Below are positions 6,194 through 26,775 of a DNA stretch of 47,350 bases, piece after piece. Position 1 is the stretch's first letter. The number at the start of each line of letters is the position of its first letter. Where the stretch lies: assembly GCA_002838945.1 (NCBI GenBank), contig PGXB01000027.1, positions 1-47,350 of the forward strand, read 5' to 3'. The DNA is from a candidate division Zixibacteria bacterium HGW-Zixibacteria-1 (GTDB lineage Bacteria; Zixibacteria; MSB-5A5; GN15; PGXB01). Both the position numbers and the translations under genes were made by a program. Under the pieces are notes generated by a model. That model saw nothing but the letters and a program-made list of their open reading frames with translations, made no database searches and was not told the origin of the DNA.

Positions 6194-6206
6194 ATATGAT
6201 CACCTC

Positions 6207-7076: not shown

Positions 7077-7089
7077 ACTTCAATCCTCC

Positions 7090-7731: not shown

Positions 7732-7746
7732 CTTTGTCTGCCCTTC

Positions 7747-8979: not shown

Positions 8980-9005
8980 AAAAGCCTCGTGCTGTTTATG
9001 TGAAT

Positions 9006-9830: not shown

Positions 9831-9831
9831 T

Positions 9832-10743
9832 TCAGCTCCGCTTCCGTTTCGATACAAAGTATGAAATATTTCCGATAACGATAAAGGCCATGACTATCAA
9901 ATGGGCCAGGGTCTGGGGACCCATCATTTTAATTCCCGGTGTGGGTGATTTTTCGAATCGCTTATATACTTTTTTAAGCTGCGATTCATACTCGGCCGCA
10001 CCTTTTATTCCGCCCAGAAGCCCCACCATCTGTTTGGGATAATACGGATACAGCAGCGGCGCCGATACGGCCGCGCAGCCTCCCGCCGTCGGTATATTAC
10101 CCTGTGACCCGGCGAAAAGGATCCATTCTTTGACCCCGGGATAGCCGCCGCCGATAGAAATCAGAAGATCCATATCCTTGAGCGATCGAATGCCGTTGAA
10201 TATCGCCAATGAGTCAAGATCCCTGCCGTCCACATCCGTCAAATACATTTTTCTGAAATCGGTGATGATGACATTCAGAACCCCGGTGCCGCCCGCCTTA
10301 AAGCCGATATTAATGTAGTCGACACCATAAACCTTGTCGGGAAAATCTTTTTTGACGACAGAATCAATGGCCGTCCCCGCCAGCGACTGCCCGGTTGCCC
10401 AGAGACACATGACATAAACCCTGTGCCCCTTGGCCAGAGCATGCCGCAAAAAGGCGTTCGACATCGGTTCAACTTCGGGAGCCATCGAAGGGCCGTAATC
10501 GTACGACAGCAGTATCTTCGATCCCGCGGGCAGATTTTCGATCTTATTAAAAACATCCATGACAATCGGAGTTGCTTTTTCGGAAAAAGTAATATTGAAC
10601 AAAAGCGGCACCGATACCGACAAGCCGATAAACAGGAAAATTATCTGCCTCTCCACTTCTTTGCCGCGCAGGGATAAAATGAACAGCCAGAGCAATCCGA
10701 TCGCTATGATAATCAATGATATGATCAAACCTATATTACTCAT
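9832..10743 (-). CDS. Module 2, subunit C: membrane-anchored Rossmann-like protein (C2)
   Basis: A 303-residue C-family protein with two N-terminal hydrophobic segments (about 4-24 and 33-55), a soluble domain (about 65-270) and a C-terminal anchor (about 278-296, IVMAFIVIGNISYFVSKRKR). The soluble part has LLSYDYGPSMAPEVEP, a 'GVDYINIGFKAGG' strand-loop also found in C1 (YGRDYVNLGFQTGN), a GGGYPGVKEW motif, and GLLGGIKGAAEYE shared with C1. The start overlaps the end of B2 by 8 bases, which implies coupled translation. Gly-rich loops after predicted strands would fit nucleotide or substrate binding, but no named motif is present. Confidence 0.85.
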   Translation of the reverse strand: MSNIGLIISLIIIAIGLLWLFILSLRGKEVERQIIFLFIGLSVSVPLLFNITFSEKATPIVMDVFNKIENLPAGSKILLSYDYGPSMAPEVEPMSNAFLRHALAKGHRVYVMCLWATGQSLAGTAIDSVVKKDFPDKVYGVDYINIGFKAGGTGVLNVIITDFRKMYLTDVDGRDLDSLAIFNGIRSLKDMDLLISIGGGYPGVKEWILFAGSQGNIPTAGGCAAVSAPLLYPYYPKQMVGLLGGIKGAAEYESQLKKVYKRFEKSPTPGIKMMGPQTLAHLIVMAFIVIGNISYFVSKRKRS

Positions 10744-11413
10744 TGTCCGTCCCCAGATGTGTTCGTTCGACGCCGAGTATCAGCCGTAACGACATCGATA
10801 CGACCCCCAGTGCAATACCGATCATAATGGCTCTCTGCCCGGCCAGGTTGGGCGAAGTCATAATCCAGATGGCCAGGTTGGGGATTTGCAGGATGGAAAA
10901 TGATTCCGGGATCCAGGAAGTGGCATAGACACCAAGCGGCGTTCGGCCCAGCAGAATGATAAATGCCGCCACCAGAAGAATGGTGGCATCGCTGTTCTTG
11001 GCCCGGAAAGCGCGATACGACGCTGACGCGACATAGAAGGCCAGAAGGGCATACATGGTGGCGCCCAGCGGATTGAAAATCCAGTCGTACATCATCTGGA
11101 ACATCGACCCGGGAGCCGCCACATCGGCGGTAATACCGCCGGGATTAAATAATTTGCCAAGTCCTGCCGCCAGCATAACAATGAAAGCGACAACCGTAAC
11201 TATCGAAAAGCCCCAATCGGTTCTTTTCTTGAAAATCTTATCCGCATGAACACGTATCAAATTGCCGCCGCCGAGAAAGAAAGCAAAGACGGCGATAATA
11301 TCGAAAAACAGCGAGAAATCCTCACCGAGCGTCTCGATCGGAGGAAAGAAAACCGACAGGACCAGCACGGTTCCGACAACAAAAGTAATGGCTAATGGTA
11401 TCTGTTTTTTCAA
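10736..11413 (-). CDS. Module 2, subunit B: small polytopic membrane protein (B2)
   Basis: A 225-residue B-family membrane protein. It has the MKKQIPLAITFVVG start, an FFPP loop where B1 and B3 have IPH, LAFYVASASYRAFRAKNSDA in the middle, and RAIMIGIALGVVSMSLRLIL followed by GVERTHLG at the C terminus. Compared with B1 and B3 it carries an extra loop around residue 95-105 (FNPGGITADVAAPG). It lies 22 bases after A2 and overlaps C2 by 8 bases. About six membrane segments; no known function. Confidence 0.85.
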   Translation of the reverse strand: MKKQIPLAITFVVGTVLVLSVFFPPIETLGEDFSLFFDIIAVFAFFLGGGNLIRVHADKIFKKRTDWGFSIVTVVAFIVMLAAGLGKLFNPGGITADVAAPGSMFQMMYDWIFNPLGATMYALLAFYVASASYRAFRAKNSDATILLVAAFIILLGRTPLGVYATSWIPESFSILQIPNLAIWIMTSPNLAGQRAIMIGIALGVVSMSLRLILGVERTHLGTDNE

Positions 11414-11435
11414 TCCAATCTCCGGCTTTCAATCA

Positions 11436-12665
11436 TCAGCTTTGAACATTGAAAATTTTAATCATAAACTCATACAAATCCACGAAAATTTCTACACCCC
11501 AGGCACTGGCAATGGTCGCGGATAAGACGCCGATCAATATCGCCACCATCGCCAGGAACTTGCCCACATCCTGACCCTTAAGAGAACCAAGCTGTTTCGG
11601 CTCGTTGGATAGATAGGCCGAGGCCGCAAAAAGCTCCTCCCCGATCAAAGTATAGTCGCAGGCCGCCACAAAAAACGGCAGCTGCGCCGGCATGGCGGTT
11701 CCGGCGATCTGGATGGCCCCGATCGAATTGCCGGTTTCGGCAAGAATCAGCGATTCGGCAAAAAAGGCGCCGAGATAGAAACATGTCGCCGGCTTTTCTC
11801 TGACCATAATACCGTCAACCGCCGCTACATAGCCGAATTGCTCATCGGTAATATAACGAACCATGTCATCATTATAGGCATCCGGGCGGCCCGCCCCCAT
11901 ATAAGCTTCCTTGATGGTCTCGCGGGCGGTTGTCATCACGATCGAGCGCGATACCGGCATATTTATCTTTATATCATAATCGGCCACCACCTTGGCCACA
12001 CGGCCGAGAATAGTGATACCGGCAATAGTCTGAACATCATCCATGTCATTGATGCCGGGAATAAATAGAATGGGACGGCCCATTTCGGTGGCCCGGCCAA
12101 TGGCCTCATCGATCGCTTCAAGACCGGCGATCTTTCTGATAAACAGCTTCCGGCCGCGCTTGGCATGGGCTATGAAAAATGTGACCGAACCGGCTATCAG
12201 GAGACCGATAATAAAAAGATTCAGCAATCTAAAGTTAATGAATTCGGTGTTGGGAACAACCGGGTCGGACTCGGCGGAAAATATCTGACCGCCGCTATAA
12301 TTGAGGCCGATTTTATAGACATAGGCAATACCGTTTTCGACCGACTTGTCCTTGAAGGAACTATCGCCGGGAAGAACCGCGCCAACCAGCGTAAACTCAT
12401 CCGATCCGTCTGCCGCCCGATAAATATCATACCCCAGAATCCTGCCCGAAGCATCGTCATCCGGGGAAATTGTCCAGGACACTCCGGTATTGTCGCCGCG
12501 GTCATAATTAAAATCTTTGGCAATAACATTGGTCGGCGGCGCCGGTAAAAAAACTTCGTGAGATAAGGTATCTTCGGCGGCAGGTTCGGGTTCCTGTGCC
12601 GCAACGGGCAATGATAGAAGGGCAAAAAAAAGAAAAATAAAAATCGAAATCTTCTGTAATTTCAT
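11436..12665 (-). CDS. Module 2, subunit A: exported Fn3 / membrane / DUF6754-like protein (A2)
   Basis: A 409-residue protein. The ATG at 12665 is chosen because a clear signal peptide follows (MKLQKISIFIFLFFALLSLP...AAQ); the open frame continues upstream only as a shadow of D1. After the signal come a Fn3-like domain (about 40-150), a membrane segment (about 160-180, LLNLFIIGLLIAGSVTFF), a cytoplasmic domain and a C-terminal membrane segment. Shared with A1: IAGLEAIDEAIGRATEMGRP, PGINDMDDVQTIAG, GRPDAYNDD, NSIGAIQIAGT and LPFFVAACDYTLIGEELFAA. It starts 23 bases after D1. The Fn3 part would sit outside the cell membrane and the conserved alpha/beta domain inside. Confidence 0.87.
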   Translation of the reverse strand: MKLQKISIFIFLFFALLSLPVAAQEPEPAAEDTLSHEVFLPAPPTNVIAKDFNYDRGDNTGVSWTISPDDDASGRILGYDIYRAADGSDEFTLVGAVLPGDSSFKDKSVENGIAYVYKIGLNYSGGQIFSAESDPVVPNTEFINFRLLNLFIIGLLIAGSVTFFIAHAKRGRKLFIRKIAGLEAIDEAIGRATEMGRPILFIPGINDMDDVQTIAGITILGRVAKVVADYDIKINMPVSRSIVMTTARETIKEAYMGAGRPDAYNDDMVRYITDEQFGYVAAVDGIMVREKPATCFYLGAFFAESLILAETGNSIGAIQIAGTAMPAQLPFFVAACDYTLIGEELFAASAYLSNEPKQLGSLKGQDVGKFLAMVAILIGVLSATIASAWGVEIFVDLYEFMIKIFNVQS

Positions 12666-12688
12666 CACTTTGAATAAATCATCTTTCA

Positions 12689-13333
12689 CTATTGGATCAT
12701 TCCCAGCCAATCTCCAAAAATAAAATCCATCCGACCAATCAATAGCGACATACGACTCATAACCGTATAGCCAAATGATGCCCCGAAAGTTATCATTATG
12801 ACCCAGATACCAATCTTGGCGGCACCGCCAAAGGCTCCCACATGCTCCTTGGAAAAATAAAAATATACCAGACCTGTAAAAGTGCCGACCACGACAACCA
12901 GATTGGCCACGATCGTACCAAAGGATGCCGAGAAAATCGACGCTCCGTAATGGGTGCTGAAAAAGGGCAGAATCGAACTCTGCACCTGAGCCATCACGTT
13001 GGAGGAGAAATAATTCATCAGATACAAACCGGCAATGGCGCCGACAATAAAGGCCAGCGGCCAGCGGGAAATCCACCCAATACTGGGGATCAGCCTTAAA
13101 ATCATCATAAAACCAAGAATGGCTCCGACCAGCAGCATATAATCATGATTGACGGAGACACCGACATACAACTTTCCATACAGATTATCCCAGTATGAAA
13201 CAACAAACCAATAGCCGGCCGATATCCCGACAAAGACCGCTTCGCTGAGTTTGTACCACGGGTTGTCTTTATAAAGAAATGATATTATTCCCAGTGTAAA
13301 AAAGGCCGCCAGCCAGGTCCCAAATAATTCCAT
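12689..13333 (-). CDS. Module 1, subunit D: polytopic membrane protein (D1)
   Basis: A 214-residue D-family membrane protein, the shortest of the three, with six predicted membrane segments (about 3-19, 28-45, 64-82, 90-107, 137-160, 172-192). It carries FLYKDNPWYKLSE, VGISAGYW, GWISRWPLAF, SKEHVGAFGG and GIWVIMITFGASFGYTVMSR followed by MSLLIGR and a DWLGMIQ end. D1 defines the core of the family; D2 and D3 add a membrane segment at the N and C terminus respectively. It starts 41 bases after C1, the largest gap inside the operon. Function unknown. Confidence 0.85.
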   Translation of the reverse strand: MELFGTWLAAFFTLGIISFLYKDNPWYKLSEAVFVGISAGYWFVVSYWDNLYGKLYVGVSVNHDYMLLVGAILGFMMILRLIPSIGWISRWPLAFIVGAIAGLYLMNYFSSNVMAQVQSSILPFFSTHYGASIFSASFGTIVANLVVVVGTFTGLVYFYFSKEHVGAFGGAAKIGIWVIMITFGASFGYTVMSRMSLLIGRMDFIFGDWLGMIQ

Positions 13334-13374
13334 ATTATCTTACTCCGGTTTGTATCAAACCAAGCGCCTCATTT

Positions 13375-14358
13375 TTATTTCCTGCTTCTTTTCTCACCTA
13401 GAAAAAAGGCCGCATTACCAATAATGATAAAAGCGATAACAATAACATGTGCAAACGACTGGGAAACCATAAACTTGGTCCCTTTGCCGAGAACCCCGGT
13501 AACCTTCTCAAATTCCGCGGCCCCGTTCAAGCCACCCAGAAGACCAACCAATTGTCCCGATCTGATGTATGGATATACCTGAGGAGCCTGAACCGCGGTA
13601 TTTCCCGCGCCAAGCTTAACACCAAAGCGGTCAACGCCAATTTGCACCCATTCAATCGTCCCCGGATAACCGGCGGACAAATTGAACGAAAAATCTATAT
13701 TCGAAAAATTGGATATATTCTTGACAAGTTCCAGCGAATCATAGGGCGTTCCGTAATAATCGCTCTGAAACATACTCTTGAAACTGCCGCCCATGCGCTG
13801 AATGACAAATTCATTTCCGGTCTGGAAGCCGAGGTTGACATAATCCCGGCCATATTGAAGATTGAGCGCCTGGATATCCGGCGATTCCATGATTTTCTGG
13901 ATGGCCAGTTCCGCCTGTTGCGGTCCCTGGGGCCAAAGCCCCATTATTATTACCTTAAGATCACGTTTAAAGCAAAGTCCGAAAAATGATTCAGCCATCG
14001 GTTGCAGCTCCGGCGCCGACGGCGGATCATAGTCCAGCGACACCAGCACTTTCGAGCCCGGCTTCAGATCCATGACGGTGTCATACAGCGCTTTCACCTC
14101 AGGCGAAAGCTCGATCTTCTGCTGGATGCTCATAAAGAAAGGCAGAACCACGGCGATACCGACAAAAAGGAAAACGACCCGACGCTCGTAAACTTTACCC
14201 TGAATGGTCCTGACCAGAATAAAAAGCAGGAACAGCGCAATCAAAACTATAATAATATATGAAACTGCCGTTGAAAATACGACCGGTTTGGGAATGACAA
14301 AGTAGAAGAACAATGTCAGAATTAGTACGCCCGCATATACCAGAAAATCCTTTTTCAT
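13375..14358 (-). CDS. Module 1, subunit C: membrane-anchored Rossmann-like protein (C1)
   Basis: A 327-residue C-family protein with three N-terminal hydrophobic segments (about 5-22, 30-50, 70-88), a soluble domain (about 95-290) and a C-terminal anchor (HVIVIAFIIIGNAAFFLGEKR). The domain has GSKVLVSLDYDPPSAPELQP, MGLWPQGPQQAELAIQK, the 'DYYGTPYDS' motif shared with C3, SAGYPGTIEW shared with C2, and GLLGGLNGAAEFE. Its ATG overlaps the B1 stop codon by one base (TAATG), a sign of translational coupling. Which side of the membrane the domain faces is uncertain, because the number of N-terminal segments differs between copies. Confidence 0.85.
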   Translation of the reverse strand: MKKDFLVYAGVLILTLFFYFVIPKPVVFSTAVSYIIIVLIALFLLFILVRTIQGKVYERRVVFLFVGIAVVLPFFMSIQQKIELSPEVKALYDTVMDLKPGSKVLVSLDYDPPSAPELQPMAESFFGLCFKRDLKVIIMGLWPQGPQQAELAIQKIMESPDIQALNLQYGRDYVNLGFQTGNEFVIQRMGGSFKSMFQSDYYGTPYDSLELVKNISNFSNIDFSFNLSAGYPGTIEWVQIGVDRFGVKLGAGNTAVQAPQVYPYIRSGQLVGLLGGLNGAAEFEKVTGVLGKGTKFMVSQSFAHVIVIAFIIIGNAAFFLGEKRSRK

Positions 14359-15011
14359 TATTCACCTCCAAGATGCGCCCGCTCGATCCCAAGAATGATC
14401 CTGAGCGACGTGGAAACTATGCCCAGCGCAATACCGATCATGATGGCCCGCTGGCCGGCCCCGTTGATATAGTTCATTATCCAGGAAGCTACTTTTGACG
14501 GATATATGACTTCGGGAAGATGAAAAATTCCTGCAATTGCATCGCCGACCGGAACCCGGCCGATCATGACAAAGAAGGCCGCAACCAGGAGCAGAGTAGC
14601 CTCGAGATTTCTGGCCCGAAAGGCCCGATAGGAGGCCGACGCCACAAAAAAGGCCAGCAAGGCAAACATTGTGGCCGACAGCGGCGTGTATATCCACTGG
14701 TAAAGCCAGTCGAATTTGGTGCCAAAATCACGAAACCCCTCGCCTCCGGAAAATCCAATAAGCACTATCAGGGCAAATGATACAACGATCACGATCGAAT
14801 AGCCCCAGTCGCGACTCTTACGGTAAACCTTATCGAAGGAAATTTTCAGCAAATTGAGCGCCCCGAGCCAAATGGCACAGGCGCCGATAATGGAGAACCA
14901 GTCTGAAAACCAGTTATTCAACTGATTGAAAGGATAGTGAGGAATAAAGTATTGAATCAGGAAAACGAATCCAACCACCGCAGTTATTATCATCGGAATT
15001 TCACGACGCAT
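14358..15011 (-). CDS. Module 1, subunit B: small polytopic membrane protein (B1)
   Basis: A 217-residue B-family membrane protein with about six membrane segments. Motifs are MRREIPMIITAVVG at the start, QYFIPHYP in the first loop, LLAFFVASASYRAFRARNLE in the middle and RAIMIGIALGIVSTSLRIIL with GIERAHLG at the end. The B copies keep their C-terminal third much better than their loops. It lies 18 bases after A1 and overlaps C1 by one base. No catalytic or transporter motif was recognised. Confidence 0.85.
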   Translation of the reverse strand: MRREIPMIITAVVGFVFLIQYFIPHYPFNQLNNWFSDWFSIIGACAIWLGALNLLKISFDKVYRKSRDWGYSIVIVVSFALIVLIGFSGGEGFRDFGTKFDWLYQWIYTPLSATMFALLAFFVASASYRAFRARNLEATLLLVAAFFVMIGRVPVGDAIAGIFHLPEVIYPSKVASWIMNYINGAGQRAIMIGIALGIVSTSLRIILGIERAHLGGE

Positions 15012-15029
15012 ATGCCAGTCCTCTTATTC

Positions 15030-16277
15030 CTATTCGCCTATTACTCTAAAAAAGTTGGAGAATTGATATAAATTAAACGTCTCCAATATCACACCGATTA
15101 TAATCGATAACAAAATGGCGGCTTTGGCCGCATCCTGCCCTTTGATGGAACCAAGAAGCCGGGGTTCGCGGCTGAGATAAGCCGACGCTGCAAAAAGCTC
15201 TTCGCCGATCAAAGTATAGTCACACGAGGCCACGAAAAAGGGCAATTGCGAGGGCTGCCCTGTTCCGGCTATCTGGATGGCGCCGATTGAGTTACCTGTT
15301 TCGGCCATAATCAGCGACTCGGCAAAAAAGGCGCCCATATAAAAAATCGTGGCCGGTTTATCGCGGACAATAATTCCATCTATCGCGGCCGCATATCCAA
15401 ATTGATCATCGGTAATGTAATGAACCTGATCTTCATTGAAGGCATCCGGCCGACCCGCCTTGCTGTAAGATTCCTTGACGATTTCCTTCGCCGTAATCAT
15501 AACCAGCGAACGACTGACCGGCACTTCGATCTGGGTCTCATACTCAGCCGCCAATTGGGCCACCCGGCCGAGAATGGCCACACCGGCAATAGTCTGGACA
15601 TTATCCATATCATTGATGCCGGGTACGAACAAAATCTTCCGGCCCATTTCGGTGGCTCGGCCAACAGCCTCATCAACCGATTCCAGACCGGCGATTTTCC
15701 TGATATATAACTCCTGTCCCGATTTTGCCTTCTGTATAAAGAAAAATATCGCGACACAAACAAAAATGGTCCCGACAAAAACATTGATTCGCTCCATATT
15801 GAACCATTGGGCCGAAGACTTGACCGGACCGACCGGATCGGATTCGGAAAGCACCGACCAGATGACGCTGCCGCCACGTTTGAGCTCATTAACAGCGGCC
15901 ACCCGATAAAAATATTCCACCCCGTCCTTGACGGCATTGTCAATAAATTCGACCTTGCCGGCAGGGACATCTCCCACCACCGTAAATGAATCGGCTCCGA
16001 CTTCTGACCGCATAACGCGGTAGGCGGTAACCTTACCGTCCTCATGATCATCAACCGATATGTCCCAATCGATACGGATTGCACCGCCGCCGTCATTCGG
16101 CTGATCCTTAACAACAATATTTTTGGGAATAACCGGCATTACATCCGGCGGAACCTGAATCAGAGTATCAGCGGCGGCCTGTGATGAATCAATCATTTCC
16201 TGGGCCGACAAAGAAACTGTCGCCGCAAAAACCGCCAGCAGCGCCAGAATAGAAAATTTGAAAATATAAGATTTCAT
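15030..16277 (-). CDS. Module 1, subunit A: exported Fn3 / membrane / DUF6754-like protein (A1)
   Basis: A 415-residue protein and the first gene of the 12-gene operon. A signal peptide (1-25, ending SLSAQ) is followed by a Fn3-like domain (about 48-150, PKNIVVKDQPNDGG onwards), a membrane segment (about 163-183) and a cytoplasmic alpha/beta domain with ESVDEAVGRATEMGRKILFV, PGINDMDNVQTIAG, GRPDAFNEDQVHYITDDQFG, NSIGAIQIAGTGQPSQLPFF and CDYTLIGEELFAASAYLS, then a C-terminal membrane segment. The domain resembles proteins annotated DUF6754 (from memory). The ATG lacks a well-placed Shine-Dalgarno: the best candidate, GTGAGG, lies about 15 bases away, inside the arm of a leader hairpin, which could link hairpin folding to expression. 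Confidence 0.88.
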   Translation of the reverse strand: MKSYIFKFSILALLAVFAATVSLSAQEMIDSSQAAADTLIQVPPDVMPVIPKNIVVKDQPNDGGGAIRIDWDISVDDHEDGKVTAYRVMRSEVGADSFTVVGDVPAGKVEFIDNAVKDGVEYFYRVAAVNELKRGGSVIWSVLSESDPVGPVKSSAQWFNMERINVFVGTIFVCVAIFFFIQKAKSGQELYIRKIAGLESVDEAVGRATEMGRKILFVPGINDMDNVQTIAGVAILGRVAQLAAEYETQIEVPVSRSLVMITAKEIVKESYSKAGRPDAFNEDQVHYITDDQFGYAAAIDGIIVRDKPATIFYMGAFFAESLIMAETGNSIGAIQIAGTGQPSQLPFFVASCDYTLIGEELFAASAYLSREPRLLGSIKGQDAAKAAILLSIIIGVILETFNLYQFSNFFRVIGE

Positions 16278-18178: not shown

Positions 18179-18988
18179 TCAATCTTTTTTTCTTCCCACC
18201 AGGATACAACACAGCGGTATCTTTTTCTCTTTTTCGATATGCTCCCACATTTTAGAGATATCGTGATCATATTCAATGAATTCCGTTATATTAATGCCGG
18301 CAGCAATAATGGCATTGAATATATCCGAAAGCTTCTGAGTAAAACTGAAGGCTTCCTTTGCTTTATATGTCGTCATCCCTACATAATCGATACCGGTATC
18401 GTTGGCCCAAGGCTCGGTTCGATAATAGGAATAGGCGACGTTCAGCGGATGCTTTTGATCATACTCCGGCTCATCCGCTGCAGCCAGCATAAAAGCGAAT
18501 GGATGCTGCTCGTAAATAAGCAGGGTGCCGTTCTTTCTCATTAGCCTTGATACAATCTTGAAGAAACCGCCGAGATCCGGCAGCCAGGTCAGCGCACCGA
18601 TCGAAATATATATTAAATCAAAGGAATTATTATATTCGGGCCCTATTTCCAGAACATCGGTCCTTACAAATTTACAATTTGCTCCGGCAATCGCAGCCAG
18701 TTCATCGGCCTCCTTGATGGCATCGTCGGAAAGATCAAATCCCACACCTGATTTTGCACCCAGATTGATCATCGAAAGCAGTTCCCGTCCGTTGTTGCAG
18801 CATAACTGCGCCGCATCCATTCCCTCGATTCGCAGCTGCTTCATCTTTTCCGTTATCGTCTCGTCCAGAATCGAGAAGCCCTTCCTGGCAAAACCGTTCT
18901 TCAGTTCATCTCCCCGTGCCTGCTGATGCTTTTGAATCGCCTCATTCCAGGCCTCTCGATTGGCTTCAATAATTTTTTTTCTATCCAT
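18179..18988 (-). CDS. Class I SAM-dependent methyltransferase
   Basis: A 269-residue cytoplasmic methyltransferase. The start at 18988 is chosen because GGGGAT lies 6 bases before the ATG; an ATG at 19009 has none. Motif I is the unusual AAQLCCNNGREL (about 60-71), a variant of the SAM-binding loop known in a subgroup of methyltransferases. FDLSDDAIKEA binds the ribose side and YISIGALTWLPDL is motif IV. The substrate is not apparent. It begins 26 bases after the nitroreductase stop codon, so the two are co-transcribed. Confidence 0.88.
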   Translation of the reverse strand: MDRKKIIEANREAWNEAIQKHQQARGDELKNGFARKGFSILDETITEKMKQLRIEGMDAAQLCCNNGRELLSMINLGAKSGVGFDLSDDAIKEADELAAIAGANCKFVRTDVLEIGPEYNNSFDLIYISIGALTWLPDLGGFFKIVSRLMRKNGTLLIYEQHPFAFMLAAADEPEYDQKHPLNVAYSYYRTEPWANDTGIDYVGMTTYKAKEAFSFTQKLSDIFNAIIAAGINITEFIEYDHDISKMWEHIEKEKKIPLCCILVGRKKD

Positions 18989-19014
18989 TTCAATATCCCC
19001 GAATGACATCTATT

Positions 19015-19932
19015 TTATACGACCGGGGGCCGGAATTTCTTAAACCAGCCGAATCCCGCCTCTTCGATCATTTTTACAAAATCCTCATTACCCTGGGGCA
19101 TCACATCGGCGGTGTAATGCAGCCCGAAATAATACTGGGCCATATTTATATAACCTCGTTCCTTTATCGAGGCCAGACATTTCCGTGCAAAATCATCGCC
19201 ATGCACCGCCCGGCAGACCTGTTCTATATATTCCATCCGCTCATCGTTGGTCTCGAATTTGCGGTCGGGGTATTTGCGCTCGAAAGCCTCGAGCAGTTCC
19301 TTATCGGCGGGATCATGATATTTTTCATTATGCACGATCACGTCGATGCCAAGTTTCTTTCTGGGCGCCGGCCTGACTTTGGGATAGCCAAGACAGAGCA
19401 GAACCACGGGAAAGACACCGTCGGGAAGCTCAAACATGCGGCGGATGTCACGAGGGAAATCCATTATGGTACCGATATATACTGACCCCAGATCCATGGC
19501 ATCGGCGGCGGTGCAGATATTCTGGGCGGCGATAATGACATCCTGAAAAGAGATCCAGAAATGGCGGAAAGCGCTTTTGCCGGAAAAGGGCGCCGTTTCC
19601 AGTTTCGCCCAGCGTTCCAGACGGTGCCAGTCAATGCAAAATATCAGATTTACCGGCGCCTCGCCGATAAATTTCTGATGACACATTTCGCCCAGCTTTT
19701 CGCTTACCTCTTTGTTCTCGATCTTTATAATGGAGAAGGGTTGGAGATTACCCCCGGTTGCGGCATGAATGCCCGCCTTCAGGACCAGATCCATCATCTC
19801 CGGCGGTATTTTCTTGTCAAGAAACGACCGGCAGCTGCCGCGCTCGATCAGCAGTCTCATCGTTTCATTGGGAAAGTCACCCCCGACCGAATCGGCCGTT
19901 CCATGATGCTTGCAGTTATTATCATCCGTCAT
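19015..19932 (-). CDS. Nitroreductase-family FMN flavoprotein
   Basis: A 305-residue protein. The start at 19932 has AGGAGG 5 bases upstream; the longer reading from 19965 does not. The nitroreductase fold begins with RGSCRSFLDKKIPPEMMDLV (FMN phosphate-binding Arg-Ser pair). It continues with AATGGNLQPFSIIKI, an ICTAADAMDLGSVYIGTI segment near the flavin, and LGYPKVRPAPRKKL before a long C-terminal extension of about 95 residues not seen in minimal nitroreductases. Members reduce nitro groups or quinones, or oxidise peptides and azolines in RiPP pathways. It is paired with the methyltransferase and follows the radical SAM cassettes on the same strand, so a tailoring role is possible but unproven. 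Confidence 0.88.
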   Translation of the reverse strand: MTDDNNCKHHGTADSVGGDFPNETMRLLIERGSCRSFLDKKIPPEMMDLVLKAGIHAATGGNLQPFSIIKIENKEVSEKLGEMCHQKFIGEAPVNLIFCIDWHRLERWAKLETAPFSGKSAFRHFWISFQDVIIAAQNICTAADAMDLGSVYIGTIMDFPRDIRRMFELPDGVFPVVLLCLGYPKVRPAPRKKLGIDVIVHNEKYHDPADKELLEAFERKYPDRKFETNDERMEYIEQVCRAVHGDDFARKCLASIKERGYINMAQYYFGLHYTADVMPQGNEDFVKMIEEAGFGWFKKFRPPVV

Positions 19933-20030
19933 TGTATCCTCCTGCTGGAAAAAAGCCAGTGTCAATCAAGGGCTAATATACGAATAAAATCACGCATTGT
20001 TACCAAATATAATGGAAGGATATTATTAAG

Positions 20031-20637: not shown

Positions 20638-21756
20638 CTAGGTCTTTTCATACACATCAGCCATCGCTTCCCGGAAAAGTTCCAGCCGCGCTGTCACTTC
20701 CTCGGTATCCTCGCGCTCAGGAACACCCTCGCGCCGCTCCATCTGATAGATGCAGTAAGGGTTATTGGCCCGGCACCCGGTGGCGGAGTACGAAGTTACC
20801 GTGCATCCCCCCCGGCAAAGCGGGAGATATTTGCAGTCATGGCAATCACCATCGGCGCTTTCGCGCGTGAATTTGCGGTTATAAGCGAAACTGTCGGGAT
20901 CATTCCAGATTTCGGAAAGCGATCTATCGCGAATATTGCCCTCGACAAAAGTTTCCGGCATCGACAAACAACCCTTGATGTCGCCGTTCGACTCGACTCC
21001 GAGAACACGCATCCCGGCGTAACAGCCGTAGTACGGCCGCTCGTTCCACAGCTTGTATCCCTTGTGGCCGTAAAAGCCGATATTCTCCCCGATATCGATA
21101 TCCATCCTGCCATCTTTTTTGAATTCTATGCACTTATCGATCAGCTTCGGATAATTTTCCAGGCTCAGAACCAGGTTGCTGTTTTCCGCCATCCGCCCCG
21201 TGCAGGTTGTCATCTGAATCCGCCACTGCCGGCAGCCGACATCGAGGAGGTGTTGCCTGATCTCATCCAGTTCGCCAAGATTGATATTCGATATCTGCGT
21301 GACGGCTGCGTATTTGACATTGCCGTTTTTGCTCATCATTTCCATGGCGCTATAGGCCCTGCGGAAACTATCATCACGCTGCCGGATATAGTTGTGGGTT
21401 TTTTCGGTTCCATCGAAACTAACACCGATTTTGCTCATGCCAAGCCGCTCAAAATCATCGACGACACCCTTCGTGATCGCATAACCGTTGGTTATGAGAC
21501 ACGGTTTGATGCCCCTCCGGCCGATCCGCTCGGCCAGCTGTCGCCAGTCGTCACGAAGCAACGGCTCGCCCCCGGAGAGAACTATCATGTATGCCCGGAG
21601 ATCGGCCAGTTCATCAATAAGATTCAGAGCCTCCTGGGTGCTGAGCTCGTCAGGGCGCTTCTTGCCGGCCGAAGTGCCGCAGTGGATACAGCGCATATTG
21701 CAGGCAAAGGTTATTTCCCAGACAACCGCATGGGGGTAAAAATCAAAATCGCTCAT
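20638..21756 (-). CDS. Cassette B, second radical SAM/SPASM enzyme
   Basis: A 372-residue radical SAM enzyme with a SPASM-type C terminus. The SAM [4Fe-4S] cluster motif CNMRCIHC is at residues 19-26 (Cys19, 23, 26), followed by LSGGEPLLRDDW and a GVSFDGTEKTHNYIRQRDDS substrate-side stretch. The C-terminal part has GCYAGMRVLG, GDIKGCLSMPE and ECHDCKYLPLCRGGC-type ligands (here DCHDCKYLPLC), which bind auxiliary clusters. It is the paralogue of the enzyme at 23730-24845, with nearly identical motifs and length. Its start overlaps the stop of the preceding enzyme by 4 bases (ATGA). Such pairs modify ribosomal peptides, usually forming C-S or C-C crosslinks; the reaction here is unknown. Confidence 0.93.
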   Translation of the reverse strand: MSDFDFYPHAVVWEITFACNMRCIHCGTSAGKKRPDELSTQEALNLIDELADLRAYMIVLSGGEPLLRDDWRQLAERIGRRGIKPCLITNGYAITKGVVDDFERLGMSKIGVSFDGTEKTHNYIRQRDDSFRRAYSAMEMMSKNGNVKYAAVTQISNINLGELDEIRQHLLDVGCRQWRIQMTTCTGRMAENSNLVLSLENYPKLIDKCIEFKKDGRMDIDIGENIGFYGHKGYKLWNERPYYGCYAGMRVLGVESNGDIKGCLSMPETFVEGNIRDRSLSEIWNDPDSFAYNRKFTRESADGDCHDCKYLPLCRGGCTVTSYSATGCRANNPYCIYQMERREGVPEREDTEEVTARLELFREAMADVYEKT

Positions 21757-23099
21757 ATCTTCTCCTTTATCTCCGGTTTAAGCCGCCGGTATCTGGACAG
21801 GGCGATGATTTCCAGCATTTCCGGCAGGTTGTGTTTCCATGCTTCACACATCATCTCCGCCCCGACTTCGCGGTCGGCACGTCGCGACGGACACCCGCCA
21901 AGACAGATGGGCAGAATATTGCATTTGCTGCATTTGTCATTATGAAAAGGGTCAAATCTGAATAGCCGGGTGAAATTGGGGTGGTTGTAATCATCGCTGT
22001 CGCGGATATTTCCCAGGGAACGAGATTTGTCGCCGATATGGTTCAGGCATTTGTATAGAACACCCTCGTGGTCCAGAACAATGCCGTTAATTGTCTGGGC
22101 GAGACAGAAATTCGTTATCGGGCGGGGCAGTTTATCTATGGAAAAGCCTCTTTCAAGCATGAGGCGGAAATATTCTATTTCAGCTTTGGAAAAATCCTCG
22201 GGACTGTGGCAGTTTTCCGAAATATTGGCGCAGACCGCCGTGGCCGGTTCAAGAAATCCGAAATATATCCGGGCCTTCTCGCCCAGACCTGCCGCGGCCA
22301 ATTCCGTGAGCATTTCGTCGAGCATATCTATATTGAAGTCTTTATCGATATTCACCCTGATGCTGACATTCATTTTATCAGAAGCGTACTTTATATTTTC
22401 GATTATCCGTTCGAAGCTTGGCTTACCGTTTTTAAGGGGCCGTTTCCGGTTATGCAAACGGGCCGGGCCGTCGATTGTAACCTGGGCCGTCGGCACCTTC
22501 AATTCAAGAAGGCGGTCGATATTCTCCGGAGTCAGGAGATACCCATTGGTTATGATACTGCCAAAATATCTGAATCCCGCTTTCTCCTTCATTCGGAAAA
22601 TCGAGTCCGTGATTTTTGAGATAATATCCATGGCCAGAAGCGGTTCACCGCCGTACCAGCAAACAGCGATGCTTTTGGTGCCGACAAGATTTTTCTCGAT
22701 TCGGTCGAGCAACGCGCCGACTGTATCATCGGACATTTTACCCTTTTTGTCGCCCTCGAAACAATAGGCGCAGGCCATATTGCATGCCATCGTAGGTGCA
22801 ATAATATATCCCGGATTGGCGGCATCATAACGGGCGCGGTAATGATTAAAAGCAATCTCTTCGGTTTGATCGGTATCGGTACGGTGGACAAAGCCGGCAT
22901 ATACCAGCTGATTGAAAAACTCCTGTTCTTCAGCGCCTAAATCCGGAGTTTCCGAAGAGGTCAGCTTACCGCCGATTCTTTTCAGTGCCTTATAATTTTC
23001 GGGCGTGATCATGGCCACCGCTCCGGAAAAGGCGTTGTAGGCGATATAATTGCCGTCGTTCCAGGGTTGTAAATGGTTATATATCGAAAGTTTGTACAT
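21753..23099 (-). CDS. Cassette B, first radical SAM/SPASM peptide maturase
   Basis: A 448-residue enzyme. The start MYKLSIYNHLQPW at 23099 is chosen because it aligns with the paralogue's MATLSRYNHIQPW and gives exactly the same length; the region before it holds a conserved hairpin. Residues 1-100 form a small domain (YNAFSGAVAMI onwards) that may recognise the precursor leader. The cluster motif CNMACAYC is at 106-113, followed by WYGGEPLLAMDII and VTIDGPARLHNRKRPLKNG. The C-terminal SPASM segment has CSKCNILPICLGGCPSRRAD, with further Cys before and after. It lies 70 bases after the peptide stop and overlaps the second enzyme by 4 bases. It probably crosslinks the three-Cys peptide encoded just upstream. 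Confidence 0.93.
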   Translation of the reverse strand: MYKLSIYNHLQPWNDGNYIAYNAFSGAVAMITPENYKALKRIGGKLTSSETPDLGAEEQEFFNQLVYAGFVHRTDTDQTEEIAFNHYRARYDAANPGYIIAPTMACNMACAYCFEGDKKGKMSDDTVGALLDRIEKNLVGTKSIAVCWYGGEPLLAMDIISKITDSIFRMKEKAGFRYFGSIITNGYLLTPENIDRLLELKVPTAQVTIDGPARLHNRKRPLKNGKPSFERIIENIKYASDKMNVSIRVNIDKDFNIDMLDEMLTELAAAGLGEKARIYFGFLEPATAVCANISENCHSPEDFSKAEIEYFRLMLERGFSIDKLPRPITNFCLAQTINGIVLDHEGVLYKCLNHIGDKSRSLGNIRDSDDYNHPNFTRLFRFDPFHNDKCSKCNILPICLGGCPSRRADREVGAEMMCEAWKHNLPEMLEIIALSRYRRLKPEIKEKI

Positions 23100-23120
23100 C
23101 AGGTCATCTCGTTTTACATC

Positions 23121-23150
23121 GGCAGGGAAGGGATACCGCCCTTCCATGCC
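23121..23150 (-). promoter_or_regulatory. Conserved hairpin between peptide and enzyme genes, cassette B
   Basis: The arms GGCA-g-GGAAGGG and CCCTTCC-a-TGCC form an 11-pair stem with a 6-base loop. On the minus strand the 5' arm reads GGCATGGAAGGG, matching GCATGGAAAGGG of the cassette A hairpin at the same place. It lies between the peptide stop (23170) and the enzyme start (23099), where it may tune RNA stability or the peptide-to-enzyme ratio. Confidence 0.6.
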
Positions 23151-23169
23151 TTTTTGATTCATATCACAA

Positions 23170-23286
23170 TTAATCCGGTGGCAGGCCGTACAACGGATAG
23201 GCCACGTCATAGCACTTGGTGGTGCAGAAAATCAGCGGGATGCAGACTTCCTTTTTAGGTTTGTTGGGGTCGACTAAAAACAGCAT
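23170..23286 (-). CDS. Cassette B precursor peptide, three cysteines, 38 residues
   Basis: The ATG at 23286 follows GGAGGAGGTGAGACT, a near-perfect ribosome binding site that is also conserved in cassette A. The peptide begins MLFLVDPNKP and ends YPLYGLPPD; Cys are at 15, 21 and 25 (C-x5-C-x3-C). The cassette A peptide shares MLFLVDPxKP, Val14-Cys15, a C-x3-C and the YPLYG end. A short peptide with conserved ends and a Cys core directly ahead of two radical SAM/SPASM enzymes is the usual layout of a RiPP precursor. There is no signal peptide and no GG or other known cleavage motif. Whether the ends are leader, follower or part of the product is unknown. Confidence 0.88.
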   Translation of the reverse strand: MLFLVDPNKPKKEVCIPLIFCTTKCYDVAYPLYGLPPD

Positions 23287-23336
23287 AGTCTCACCTCCTC
23301 CAATTAATTAAATGGTTCGGTGGTTGAAGAAATGCC

Positions 23337-23363
23337 GGTGTCATAAATTTTATAAATGACACC
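23337..23363 (-). promoter_or_regulatory. Inverted repeat in the peptide leader, cassette B
   Basis: GGTGTCAT and ATGACACC, 11 bases apart, lie 51 bases upstream of the peptide start. Cassette A has GTGCCAT/ATGACAC at 53 bases, with one mismatch. The equal position in both cassettes suggests an operator or RNA stem. Confidence 0.5.
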
Positions 23364-23475
23364 CTATAATGTTGCTGTACTGCTCTACAATGTAAGGTAA
23401 TCAAACAGTGGTTGATCGAAGTGCATCACCCCAATTTGAGGTTAATTATTTTTCAGTGTTGCAATTACTCAAGGC

Positions 23476-23523
23476 AAAAAAAGATAGCGGTAAAATTCTC
23501 AGGTTGCAAAGCCGAATGCTATC
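23476..23523 (-). terminator. Leader terminator/attenuator, cassette B
   Basis: On the minus strand GATAGC and GCTATC pair across about 29 bases and are followed by TTTTTTT. It lies about 25 bases past the promoter and 190 bases before the peptide gene. Cassette A has the same stem, spacing and T-tract. Confidence 0.6.
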
Positions 23524-23548
23524 CAAAAATCCGCGCCTTGGTGCATGT

Positions 23549-23577
23549 AAGGTAAATTATACGCTCAGGACTGTCAA
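23549..23577 (-). promoter_or_regulatory. Promoter of cassette B
   Basis: TTGACA (23577-23572) and TACCTT (23554-23549) are 17 bases apart on the minus strand, with a TATAAT between them. The cassette A promoter has the same layout and the same flanking TTTATACTTGAC text. Confidence 0.5.
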
Positions 23578-23605
23578 GTATAAATTGCCGGTATCTTCGA
23601 CATAT

Positions 23606-23635
23606 TAAAAAAAGGACAAGCTGAAGTCCTGTCCT
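23606..23635 (-). terminator. Terminator ending cassette A
   Basis: AGGACA and TGTCCT pair and are followed on the minus strand by TTTTTTT. It lies about 95 bases past the stop of the second cassette A enzyme and just before the cassette B promoter, so the two cassettes are separate transcripts. Confidence 0.7.
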
Positions 23636-23729
23636 CATATCAAAATATGGCTGTCCGCCAGAGATTTAGCCGCACTTATCTCATTTCAGTCATACCTTTG
23701 CTGTATCCCGCAGGCGGCACGGTCTCCCA

Positions 23730-24845
23730 TCAATCCTTTTCAAAGATATCGGTCATGGCTTCCCGGAAAGGCTCCAGCATTTCCCTGACCTGCGGCGTAT
23801 CCTCGCATTTGATGCCCTGCCGCTTTTCTATCTGATAAATACAGTACGGATTATTGGCCCGGCAGCCGGTCGCGGAAAATGATGTCACCGTACAGCCGCC
23901 GCGACAGAGCGGCAGATATTTGCAGTCATGACACTCTCCCTCGGCCATGTCACGGTTGAATTTGCGATTATAGGCGAAACCGTCGGGATTATTCCAGATC
24001 TCGGTCAGTGAGGAGTTCCGAATATTGCCTTCCACGAAATTCTCCGGCATCGAGAGACACCCCTTAATATCTCCGTTTGATTCTATTCCAAGCACCCGCG
24101 TTCCGGCAAAACACCCCAGATACCGCCGGTCCTTCCAAAGTTCCTGCCCCTGGCAGCCGTAATAGCCGATATTTTCGCCGAGATCAAAACTCAGGCGTGT
24201 CTCTTTGGTATATTCGAGACATTTTTCGATAAGTTTGGGATAATTATCAAGAGAGAGAACCAGATCGCTCTGCTCGCACATGCGGCCGGTGCTGGTGGTC
24301 ATCTGAACGCGCCACAACGGGCAGCCGACCTCGATCAACTGGTCCCTGATCTGGTCGAGTTCCTCGAAATTGATATTGGAGACCTGCGTTACCGCTTCAC
24401 AACGGACCTTGCCGTTTTCGCTCATCAACTTCATGGCGTTCAATGCCTTCGACCAGCTGTCATCGCGCTGCCTGATATAATTATGCGTTTTTTCGGTCCC
24501 GTCAAAACTGACCCCGATCGTACTGAAGCCCAGCCGCTCAAAATCATCGACGATTTCCTTTGTGACCAGATAACCGTTGGTAATCAGGCCCGCTTTCATA
24601 TTTCCGGCGACAATTCGTGCGGCCAGTTCTCTCCAGTCTTTTCTCATCAGCGGTTCGCCCCCGGAGAGAATAATGGCATTCGTGCCCAGATCGGCCATTT
24701 CGTCGATAAGAGCCAGCGCCTCATCGGTCGTGAGTTCATCCGGTCTTTTCTTTCCTGCCGCGGTGCCGCAGTGCAAACAGCGCATGTTGCATGCAAAGGT
24801 GATCTCCCAGACGACGGTAGCGGGATAAAACGTATAGCCACTCAT
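23730..24845 (-). CDS. Cassette A, second radical SAM/SPASM enzyme
   Basis: A 371-residue radical SAM enzyme, paralogue of 20638-21756. The cluster motif CNMRCLHC is at residues 19-26, then LSGGEPLMRKDW and GVSFDGTEKTHNYIRQRDDS, identical in both copies. The SPASM end has GCFAGTRVLG, GDIKGCLSMPE, ECHDCKYLPLCRGGC and SATGCRANNPYCIYQ. This enzyme lacks the N-terminal leader-recognition-like domain of its partner, starting only 18 residues before the cluster, so it may rely on the first enzyme to bind the substrate. Its start overlaps the first enzyme's stop by 4 bases, and a terminator follows. Confidence 0.93.
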   Translation of the reverse strand: MSGYTFYPATVVWEITFACNMRCLHCGTAAGKKRPDELTTDEALALIDEMADLGTNAIILSGGEPLMRKDWRELAARIVAGNMKAGLITNGYLVTKEIVDDFERLGFSTIGVSFDGTEKTHNYIRQRDDSWSKALNAMKLMSENGKVRCEAVTQVSNINFEELDQIRDQLIEVGCPLWRVQMTTSTGRMCEQSDLVLSLDNYPKLIEKCLEYTKETRLSFDLGENIGYYGCQGQELWKDRRYLGCFAGTRVLGIESNGDIKGCLSMPENFVEGNIRNSSLTEIWNNPDGFAYNRKFNRDMAEGECHDCKYLPLCRGGCTVTSFSATGCRANNPYCIYQIEKRQGIKCEDTPQVREMLEPFREAMTDIFEKD

Positions 24846-26188
24846 AACTGCTCCTTCATCTCCGGTTTCAACTGCCGGTATTTGGAAAGCGCTATCACTT
24901 CCAGCATCTCAGGCAGATTATATTTCCAGCTGTCACATAGTTCATCTTTCGTGAGTCCCCGCTCGGCTCGCTTCATGGGGCATCCACCCAGACAGAGCGG
25001 CAAAATATTGCACTCCCGACATTCCGAATCTTCAAAGGGATTGAATCTGAAAAAACTCAAAAAGTTGGGGTGCATGTAATTAATTTTCTCTCTGATATTA
25101 CCTATGGATTTGGCTTTATCGCCGACCGTATTCAGGCAGCGGTAAACGTCGCCATCAGGATCCAGCGCAAATCCGGACAGACATTGCGTCAGGCAGTACA
25201 TCATCATCGGCGACGGCAGCTTGTCAATCTTGAAATTCTTCTCCAGCAGAAGACGGTAATAATCCACCTCGACATGGGAAAAATCCCGGGTGGTATGGCA
25301 GGTCTCGGCGATATTGGCGCAAACCGAATTAATAGGTTCCAGGAATTCAAAATATAACAGTGCCTTATCTCTCAAGCCGGCTTCGATCAGTTGATCAAGC
25401 AACTCGCCCAAAAGTTCGATATTGAATTTCTCATCGACATTTATTCGAATACTTATATTAAGCTTACCTACGGCATATTTCAAATTTTCAATGATGGTTT
25501 CGAAACTGGGACCGCCGTTCTTCAGGCGGCGCTTGTAGTTATGATGTCTGGCCGGGCCGTCCAGCGTAACCTGGGCCACGCCGACATGCCACTCCACCAG
25601 CTGATCGACAATTTCGGGCCTTAACAGGTAGCCGTTGGTGATGATATCGGCATTATACGCAAAACGATGTTCTTTGCCGAGATCAAGAAATTTGCGGGAC
25701 AGCCGCTCTATAATATCCATGGCCAGCAGCGGCTCGCCGCCGTACCAAGTGACATCGAAACGGCCGATGCTGTCGGCGCCCTTTTTTACAAAAGCCTCAA
25801 TTTCCCTAATGGTGTCGTCCGACATCCGCCCCTTCTTATTGCCTTCGAAACAATACTCGCAAGCCATATTGCAGGCCATCGTCGGTGCAACCACCAGACC
25901 GAGAGCGGTGCCACCATAGCGGGCAAAATGATGAAGGAATTTTAATTCCTCCTGCTGACTATAGTGATCAGGATGAACCATCCCGGCATATTCCATCTGC
26001 TTGAAAAGTTCCTGTTCTTTCGGTGTGAATTCAGGATCGGACCGGATTTTTATTTTTTCAATTATATCATTATAGATTTTATGATTTCCATGATCCAACA
26101 GCGCCACGGCGCCGGTGAACGCATTATAGACGATAAAATATTGATCCCTCCAGGGTTGGATATGATTATATCGTGATAAAGTAGCCAT
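24842..26188 (-). CDS. Cassette A, first radical SAM/SPASM peptide maturase
   Basis: A 448-residue enzyme. The start at 26188 is chosen over a longer reading from 26251 because the extra codons would lie in a perfect hairpin, and because the shorter form has exactly the length of its paralogue. The N-terminal domain (1-100, YNAFTGAVALLDHGNHKIYN) may bind the peptide. CNMACEYC sits at 106-113, then WYGGEPLLAMDIIERL and VTLDGPARHHNYKRRLKNGG. SPASM ligands include CRECNILPLCLGGCPMKRAE and a final DELCDSWKYNLPEMLEVIA shared with cassette B. It probably modifies the three-Cys peptide encoded just upstream. The binding site before this ATG is weak. Confidence 0.92.
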   Translation of the reverse strand: MATLSRYNHIQPWRDQYFIVYNAFTGAVALLDHGNHKIYNDIIEKIKIRSDPEFTPKEQELFKQMEYAGMVHPDHYSQQEELKFLHHFARYGGTALGLVVAPTMACNMACEYCFEGNKKGRMSDDTIREIEAFVKKGADSIGRFDVTWYGGEPLLAMDIIERLSRKFLDLGKEHRFAYNADIITNGYLLRPEIVDQLVEWHVGVAQVTLDGPARHHNYKRRLKNGGPSFETIIENLKYAVGKLNISIRINVDEKFNIELLGELLDQLIEAGLRDKALLYFEFLEPINSVCANIAETCHTTRDFSHVEVDYYRLLLEKNFKIDKLPSPMMMYCLTQCLSGFALDPDGDVYRCLNTVGDKAKSIGNIREKINYMHPNFLSFFRFNPFEDSECRECNILPLCLGGCPMKRAERGLTKDELCDSWKYNLPEMLEVIALSKYRQLKPEMKEQL

Positions 26189-26222
26189 TTTCTTCAATGA
26201 TACTCCAGGTTCCCCGGATAAA

Positions 26223-26254
26223 AGCATGGAAAGGGAAAAATCCCTTTCCATGCT
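26223..26254 (-). promoter_or_regulatory. Perfect hairpin between peptide and enzyme genes, cassette A
   Basis: The 14-base arms AGCATGGAAAGGGA and TCCCTTTCCATGCT enclose a 4-base loop; on the minus strand TTTT follows. It lies between the peptide stop and the first enzyme. Such a weak terminator or RNA-end protector would let the peptide be made in excess of the enzymes. Cassette B has a related hairpin. Confidence 0.7.
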
Positions 26255-26275
26255 GATAAAGTTTTGCAGCGGGGA

Positions 26276-26383
26276 TTAGATCTCGATGCCATAAAGCGGA
26301 TAAAATACTCCCTTGCAGAACTTCTTGCAGTCAAACGTGCACACATTCAGTGTGGGCTTGTCCGGATCGACCAAGAATAGCAT
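26276..26383 (-). CDS. Cassette A precursor peptide, three cysteines, 35 residues
   Basis: The ATG at 26383 follows GAGGAGGTGAGACA, the same ribosome binding site as in cassette B. The peptide starts MLFLVDPDKP and ends YPLYGIEI; Cys are at 15, 19 and 23, a regular C-x3-C-x3-C. With the cassette B peptide it shares the first ten residues but one, Val14-Cys15, and the YPLYG end. The central residues between the Cys differ completely and are charged here (Asp, Lys-Lys) where the B peptide is hydrophobic. Thus the enzymes' recognition parts are conserved and the product core varies, the usual RiPP pattern. No secretion signal or exporter is encoded nearby. Confidence 0.88.
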   Translation of the reverse strand: MLFLVDPDKPTLNVCTFDCKKFCKGVFYPLYGIEI

Positions 26384-26435
26384 TGTCTCACCTCCTCAGA
26401 TGTGGTCAAAGGGTTGAGCGGTAGATAAAATGCAT

Positions 26436-26459
26436 GTGCCATTTTACTTCTAATGACAC
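26436..26459 (-). promoter_or_regulatory. Imperfect inverted repeat in the peptide leader, cassette A
   Basis: GTGCCAT and ATGACAC are 10 bases apart and lie 53 bases upstream of the peptide start, matching the perfect repeat at 23337-23363 in position and sequence. Confidence 0.4.
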
Positions 26460-26572
26460 TCTCATATTGACAAACAATTTTTCCGGTACCTGTACAATAT
26501 TGGTAATTGGTTAAGGGTCGGTAATTACCTCGAAGTTTTAAAGTTATTTTAGCGCTGCAAATTCCGGGACAG

Positions 26573-26620
26573 AAAAAAGATAGCATGACCAAATCAGGGC
26601 TGTCAGATTAACTGCTATCT
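26573..26620 (-). terminator. Leader terminator/attenuator, cassette A
   Basis: AGATAGC and GCTATCT pair across about 29 bases, followed by TTTTT on the minus strand. It starts about 25 bases past the promoter, 190 bases before the peptide gene, as in cassette B. The shared CGGATTT just upstream adds to the conservation. Confidence 0.6.
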
Positions 26621-26643
26621 CAAACCAAATCCGTATTGCTTAT

Positions 26644-26672
26644 AAGTAATACTATACAAATTCGGAAGTCAA
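26644..26672 (-). promoter_or_regulatory. Promoter of cassette A
   Basis: TTGACT (26672-26667) is followed after 17 bases by TTACTT (26649-26644) on the minus strand. A TATAGT lies between them. Sequence and layout match the cassette B promoter. Confidence 0.45.
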
Positions 26673-26775
26673 GTATAAAATGCCACCGGCAAAGCGGCGG
26701 AAACCGGTATCAGGCCTGTTTTCGCCCTTATCGCATTGGCGTCATACGATTTGCGATTATGACCAGGAAAAAATG

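Follow-up and report, generated by a model that had tools for sequence, protein, structure and literature searches.

In the spliceotides, a group of ribosomally synthesised and post-translationally modified peptides (RiPPs), the PlpX/PlpY pair of Pleurocapsa (PlpXY) targets MYG and LYG sites, from which C8H9NO is lost (PMC10533398). The ranthipeptide synthase CteB, known from the SCIFF peptides, forms a Cys thioether, and its N-terminal domain is a RiPP recognition element (RRE), to which the leader binds in the form of a strand (PMC8326336). Likenesses to both occur in two tandem cassettes of a Zixibacteria genome, HGW-Zixibacteria-1, within a stretch of 47,350 nucleotides that is here called the window (PGXB01000027.1, contig 27 in an assembly of 82 contigs, which has named Candidatus Zixiibacteriota genomes among its same-family relatives). 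Each cassette encodes a very short peptide followed by two radical S-adenosylmethionine (SAM)/SPASM enzymes, referred to below as enzyme 1 and enzyme 2.

It is fairly likely that these cassettes make a hybrid RiPP, in which enzyme 1 crosslinks cysteines and enzyme 2 splices out tyramine, the nature of the Cys link being left unspecified. Each half is of a known kind; the novel part is the combination of crosslink and splice on precursors of 31–48 amino acids (aa). Such a hybrid was not found in the literature searched, which left out key splicease surveys, and a prior listing of Zixibacteria cassettes is possible. The likeness to spliceotides lies in the X-Tyr-Gly context (PIRPLYGLPI in the former, IKPLYGVPI here) and in a radical SAM/SPASM enzyme whose relation to theirs is drawn via families and relatives. 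In contrast to spliceotide precursors, which have long Nif11 or NHLP leaders, the Zixibacteria peptides have a leader of only seven residues and a Cys-rich core, and are accompanied by a second, CteB-like enzyme, with no separate PlpY seen.

Two cassettes and a family of short precursors

Both cassettes lie on the minus strand, with the gene order peptide, enzyme 1, enzyme 2. Cassette B begins with a precursor of 35 aa (26276..26383; MLFLVDPDKPTLNVCTFDCKKFCKGVFYPLYGIEI), which consists of the leader MLFLVDP, a CxxxCxxxC core with cysteines at residues 15, 19 and 23, and a YPLYG end. It is followed by enzyme 1 (24842..26188; 448 aa counted from the LSRYNH start, in an open frame that reaches 469) and enzyme 2 (23730..24845; 371 aa). 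In cassette A, the precursor has 38 aa (23170..23286; MLFLVDPNKPKKEVCIPLIFCTTKCYDVAYPLYGLPPD) with cysteines at residues 15, 21 and 25. Its enzyme 1 (21753..23099; 448 aa, open frame to 485) is 54% identical to the cassette B counterpart, and its enzyme 2 (20638..21756; 372 aa) is 70% identical. The sequence GGAGG stands ahead of the ATG of both peptides, as part of the ribosome-binding sites (RBS) GAGGAGG in B and GGAGGAGG in A. The two enzyme genes overlap by four bases (ATGA) in each cassette. Cysteines of the radical SAM cluster are found at 106, 110 and 113 in enzyme 1 and at 19, 23 and 26 in enzyme 2, and the SPASM cysteine set is complete in both enzyme types (in enzyme 2, C245-x12-G-x4-C263, C305-x2-C308-x5-C314-x3-C318 and C335). 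All of the lengths, Cys positions and overlaps given for the two cassettes and their three-Cys peptides in the initial annotation are correct. Its span of 20638–26672 does contain both cassettes, although the coding part stops at 26383, the remainder (26384 to 26672) is upstream region only, and the minus strand was left unstated.

A scan of enzyme 1 against 84,980 species genomes returned 15 loci at 48–54% identity, after which the next matches fall to 31%. These loci belong to Zixibacteria, by name or kinship, or to unassigned Fibrobacteres–Chlorobi–Bacteroidetes (FCB) or bacterium bins; one (DYGG01000001.1) is labelled Ignavibacterium and is probably a mislabelled bin. Viral contigs held only partial relatives of enzyme 1, at 25–35% identity. 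Of 132 genomes of the phylum, 38 (over a quarter) have an enzyme of this group, which is designated clade I; the peptide occurs in 37, and both in 36. Thus, by our own tally, the peptide is present in 36 of the 38 genomes with enzyme 1 and in one of the 94 without (Fisher p 8e-29).

This family comprises 70 distinct precursors of 31–48 aa with one to six cysteines (mode three); a few of these come from contig ends or are isolated, and in their case no enzyme 2 can be seen. Each enzyme pair has between one and six or more precursors placed ahead of it. The leader follows the plan M-[I/V/L..]-[Y/F]-L-[I/V]-D-P, with P7 present in all 70 and L4 in 67. The first Cys is residue 15 in 43 of the 70, and CxxxC spacing accounts for 90 of the 127 Cys gaps. 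No match was found for the peptides in NCBIfam or Pfam (E up to 10 and 1, respectively). Over 15 pairs of related precursors, the ratio of nonsynonymous to synonymous change (pN/pS) is 0.05 in the leader, 0.19 in the middle and 0.07 in the tail, and the precursors are therefore translated and constrained at both ends. The peptide genes are not chance frames, as is evident from their RBS, a third cassette in the same genome, 70 homologues, purifying selection and co-occurrence with the enzyme. The initial description of the cassettes as RiPP-like holds. Small metal- or cluster-binding proteins could also be rich in cysteine, with radical SAM genes as neighbours for some other reason. This explanation is highly improbable, given the near-perfect co-occurrence with enzyme 1 across the 132 genomes and a tail that tracks the presence of enzyme 2.

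The P-x-Y-G tail and enzyme 2

The laboratory splice tag of PlpXY is (G)GPIRPLYGLPI (PMC10533398 Table 1), the centre of which is identical, residue for residue, in the Zixibacteria tails IKPLYGVPI and YPLYGLPPD. On the basis of this likeness and the family motif, tyramine-splicing X-Y-G sites are predicted at Leu30-Tyr31-Gly32 of peptide B (26288..26296, minus strand) and Leu32-Tyr33-Gly34 of peptide A (23185..23193, minus strand). Tail composition in the 70 precursors is P-[L47/C11/M10/I1]-Y69-[G67/S2]; 24 have [I/V][K/R]-P-[L/M/C]-Y-G and 35 have P-[L/M]-Y-G-[L/V/I]-P.

The motif follows the enzyme. P-x-Y-[GS] is found in 69 of the 70 enzyme-2-type precursors and in none of 36 from related cassettes that lack enzyme 2 (p 1e-27), these being drawn from clade I without enzyme 2 (3), clade II (19), clade III (5) and Clo7bot (9), with the clade II and III peptides chosen by eye from an RBS scan. 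Among control open reading frames (ORFs) of the same loci, it occurs in 17 of 3011. The cleanest comparison is within clade I, at a locus (L025) with two enzyme 1 genes: the one paired with enzyme 2 is accompanied by a YPLYS precursor, whereas the one without has three precursors in which the leader is present and P-x-Y-G absent. In clade II, a sister clade within Zixibacteria, a different type of enzyme takes the second place (TIGR04103 at only 103–111 bits, ranked 15 or lower), and the peptides are without X-Y-G.

The best NCBIfam matches of enzyme 2 are TIGR04103 (nif11-class maturase 3) and TIGR03913 (GDL motif/DUF1843 maturase). These are its nearest named relatives, and their neighbouring peptides contain P/L/M-Y-G/A; enzyme 2 nonetheless scores far below both cut-offs, and the precursors are unrelated beyond the motif. 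The relatives closest to it on annotated plasmids come from Aureibacter, Azospirillum (three GDL maturases), Nostoc (a TIGR04103 enzyme) and Agathobacter. In Nostoc, the Nif11 precursor has SIALYGLPPELF / GGRGSIALYGLPPELF at its end, and the motif belongs to the core, behind the GG site. DUF1843 peptides beside the relatives contain IKPYGVAI, RMLYGGAM, RPMYMATM, VRPYGPAM, QPYGAGI, LPMYAASI and VLYAAGI, and one further Azospirillum peptide (MYMATVTDAI) has Y-M-A only. Ahead of the Agathobacter enzyme is an unannotated ORF of 35 aa with the end FGPVMYGTGVRM (...GPVMYGTGVRM). The X-Y-G/A motifs of these peptides resemble the YPLYGLPPD end of peptide A, and in the tree the Zixibacteria enzyme 2 joins the Agathobacter enzyme at support 99. 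A structural model of enzyme 2 (pLDDT, the predicted local distance difference test, 67, and below 50 in the C-terminal half) was too weak to support a fold search.

Two further observations concern these relatives. The Agathobacter ORF (L219, 4815–4922) lies on a plasmid of A. rectalis, preceding a pair of radical SAM and major facilitator superfamily (MFS) genes, and judged by its sequence is likely to be a splicease substrate in a human gut bacterium. On a Parabacteroides plasmid (L227, 563–1405), a lipoprotein beside a TIGR04133 radical SAM enzyme carries PCEYGSPHA near its lipid-anchored end, and the TIGR04133 system may therefore also be tyramine-splicing.

There are two other ways in which the tail and enzyme 2 might be connected. 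The first is that both enzymes act on cysteines only, in the style of TrnC and TrnD of thuricin CD, with PLYG as a docking tag for enzyme 2. The four-base overlap of the enzyme genes would fit this, and the tail-less peptides that accompany enzyme 1 in L025 and Clo7bot are also consistent with a tag. However, the relatives of enzyme 2 meet L/M-Y-G in peptides with very different leaders, the Nostoc motif follows the GG site, within the core, and the tail closely matches the known splice tag, which makes the docking explanation unlikely. The tail as a mere recognition tag for enzyme 2 was our own first idea; it gave way once the splice tag from the literature and the peptides beside the relatives came into view. 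The initial annotation had similarly proposed conserved recognition parts around a variable core; the variable Cys-rich middle and the conserved ends are as described, although the C-terminal one probably does more than serve recognition.

The second alternative is that enzyme 2 alters the conserved Tyr in some other manner, by a PqqE- or mycofactocin-like carbon–carbon link or a Tyr-centred crosslink. The Tyr is invariant (69/69), and SkfB and PqqE are among the best solved relatives of enzyme 2. Yet the residues on either side of the Tyr, Gly after it and L/M/C before it, show almost the same conservation, which is also the case at splicease sites, and PqqE and MftC fall outside the tree group of enzyme 2, so that this alternative appears slightly less likely again than the docking tag. 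Both copies of enzyme 2 in the window are designated predicted spliceases of PlpX-like type, on NCBIfam matches, relatives' peptides and the tree, and excision of tyramine is probably their function.

The seven-residue leader and enzyme 1

Among NCBIfam families, enzyme 1 comes nearest to TIGR04334, the Clo7bot maturase, and to TIGR04463, falling far short of either cut-off (for TIGR04334, 325 and 317 bits in the two window enzymes against 600). Clo7bot peptides and their maturase CtpM resemble the Zixibacteria cassettes in the leader M-x-[FY]-[IL]-x-x-P, a first Cys near residue 15, several precursors per locus, an ABC exporter nearby and an enzyme to which enzyme 1 is 31% identical over 97%. 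They differ in having neither enzyme 2 nor a P-x-Y-G end. The Clo7bot peptides beside CtpM on a Paraclostridium plasmid begin MKFIKKP and MKYIVKP, and the CefA peptide beside a TIGR04463 enzyme begins MQYLVQP. A seven-residue leader, M-x-[FY]-[LI]-x-x-P, is thus common to clade I, Clo7bot and CefA peptides. In trees, clades I, II and III, CtpM and TIGR04463 lie near one another, with full support for clade I and weak deeper nodes. Since the leader is shared with Clo7bot, CefA and the sister clades, leader and enzyme 1 form a matched pair of a known kind; by sequence, both are members of the broad Clo7bot/TIGR04463 group.

Among solved structures, that of CteB (5wgg, E 9e-26, alignment from residue 19) is nearest in sequence to enzyme 1. 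An AlphaFold model of enzyme 1 from cassette B (pLDDT 80) has an N-terminal b-b-b-a-a domain, which is RRE-like. Residues 5–440 of the model align with CteB (Z 24), leader-binding domain included, and residues 1–448 with TigE (Z 22.8). The likeness therefore covers the whole fold, from the N-terminal leader-binding domain to the SPASM domain, although identity over the structural alignment is about 18%, leader and core are different, and the SCIFF maturase model gives about 73–88 bits. The Cys crosslinks regarded as plausible in the initial annotation accordingly remain a sound reading, enzyme 1 being CteB-like by sequence and model, and the installation of such a crosslink by enzyme 1 is probable. 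Comparison with GeoRSP, FibroRumin and CXXX-repeat systems, suggested at the same time, yielded scores far below the cut-offs (106–110/400, 69–75/400 and 64–75/350 bits). The view that the YPLYG end and the enzyme pair match no nameable class can be improved upon, with leader and enzyme 1 in the Clo7bot/TIGR04463 group and a tail that is like the PlpXY splice tag.

The sister clades have peptides of their own. Clade II peptides (MKFLEKP...KPCPC...ILPP) share the leader plan, and KPCPC...ILPP is common to many clade II relatives in the phylum. The genome studied here has one such cassette (L010, contig 5, 35641–38852), in which an enzyme-1-like gene is followed by a 28-aa peptide MKFLEKPQDSVKKPCPCLNRLFLILPPW and then by a different SPASM enzyme. 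Clade III (L159, L160, L161 and L173) has a lone enzyme-1-like gene with Cys-rich MNWLVEP-like peptides downstream, a Rce1-like CAAX protease at two loci and an ABC ATPase gene at L173.

Several points weigh against the hybrid as proposed. For the crosslinking half, enzyme 1 has no close relative with known chemistry, and no description of Clo7bot was found in the literature searched. No conserved acceptor residue adjoins the cysteines in the precursor family, and the type of Cys link is therefore a guess. For the splicing half, enzyme 2 reaches 247 bits against a TIGR04103 cut-off of 725, which places it outside that named family. Its link to the Nostoc/Azospirillum group has a support of 43, with the TIGR04133 group close by, and the lineage argument is thus fair rather than closed. 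The relation to PlpX is drawn via relatives' peptides, motif and families, and no stand-alone PlpY-like leader-binding gene was seen beside enzyme 2. The natural test at L025 is a single case, and one clade I precursor in an enzyme-2 cassette (MIFLIEPVSATKNRCPSLWSCGERLCPILCRTLI, genome G086) is without the motif.

Accessory genes and a proposed pathway

A third cassette occurs on contig 6 of the same genome, where a GTG-started peptide (MIYLIDPSEITKSGCKKLTCDTYVPPVCKDVVYPLYGIDPVPI) and enzymes 1 and 2 are followed by an MsbA-like ATP-binding cassette (ABC) exporter. The window cassettes have neither an exporter nor a B12 radical SAM gene, and the contig 6 exporter may serve all three cassettes. 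In relatives, cassettes often extend to a B12-binding radical SAM enzyme (in about half) and then an ABC exporter, which in many is of the MsbA type. Lys precedes P-x-Y-G in 18/28 against 8/31 cases when divided by B12 radical SAM presence (p 0.004, uncorrected, nine features), a result that is not used here; none of the other eight peptide features stood out. Three divergent clade I cassettes (L194, L195 and L196) carry a third SPASM radical SAM enzyme (354–366 aa) directly before enzyme 1.

The 5' leaders of the two window peptides (23287–23584 and 26384–26679) are alike, with a GATAGC...GCTATC-T6/7 hairpin and, close to the RBS, a second hairpin, GTGTCAT...ATG(A/G)CAC, which together have an attenuation-like look. 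The hairpins were seen by eye, and a structured 5' leader was dropped as a candidate because the folding energy is not beyond that of shuffles (z -1.0 and +0.8). An Rfam scan of the window gave no match. Downstream of cassette A, on the same strand (18179–19965), are nitroreductase-family and methyltransferase genes, which are probably unrelated to it since they are not conserved at other cassettes. Elsewhere in the window (5399–16277), a four-gene block of function-unassigned membrane proteins stands in three tandem copies.

From these parts we infer a pathway, including the order of its two reactions. The leader MLFLVDP would dock, as a strand, on the RRE-like domain at the N terminus of enzyme 1, and this enzyme would then crosslink cysteines in the variable CxxxC middle with residues nearby, most likely as thioethers. 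Enzyme 2 would excise tyramine from X-Tyr-Gly, leaving a ketoamide (an alpha-keto-beta-amino acid). Because enzyme 2 is without an RRE of its own and without a PlpY partner, it may share the leader-binding domain of enzyme 1. The product would be exported by the MsbA-like transporter, and the B12 radical SAM enzyme, where present, could methylate it. The secreted compound is perhaps a protease inhibitor, a role suggested because the spliceotide ketoamide has served as a protease-inhibition moiety.

In its widest form, the proposal is of a phylum-wide class of ultra-short peptides with radical Cys crosslinks and a spliced ketoamide, in which one leader-binding domain serves both enzymes, Cys itself can be spliced (PCYG, 11 precursors) and a B12 enzyme adds a third modification in some cassettes. 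We consider this extended version about evenly balanced between right and wrong. If true, two known and separate peptide chemistries would be joined on the smallest precursors. The family would offer about 70 ready substrates that differ naturally around the splice site (L, M, C or I before Tyr, and G or S after it), and an uncultured phylum might become a source of crosslinked ketoamide protease inhibitors. It would also suggest that the same parts can help to explain the orphan leader of the Clo7bot type as well as the GDL/DUF1843 and nif11-class-3 enzymes.

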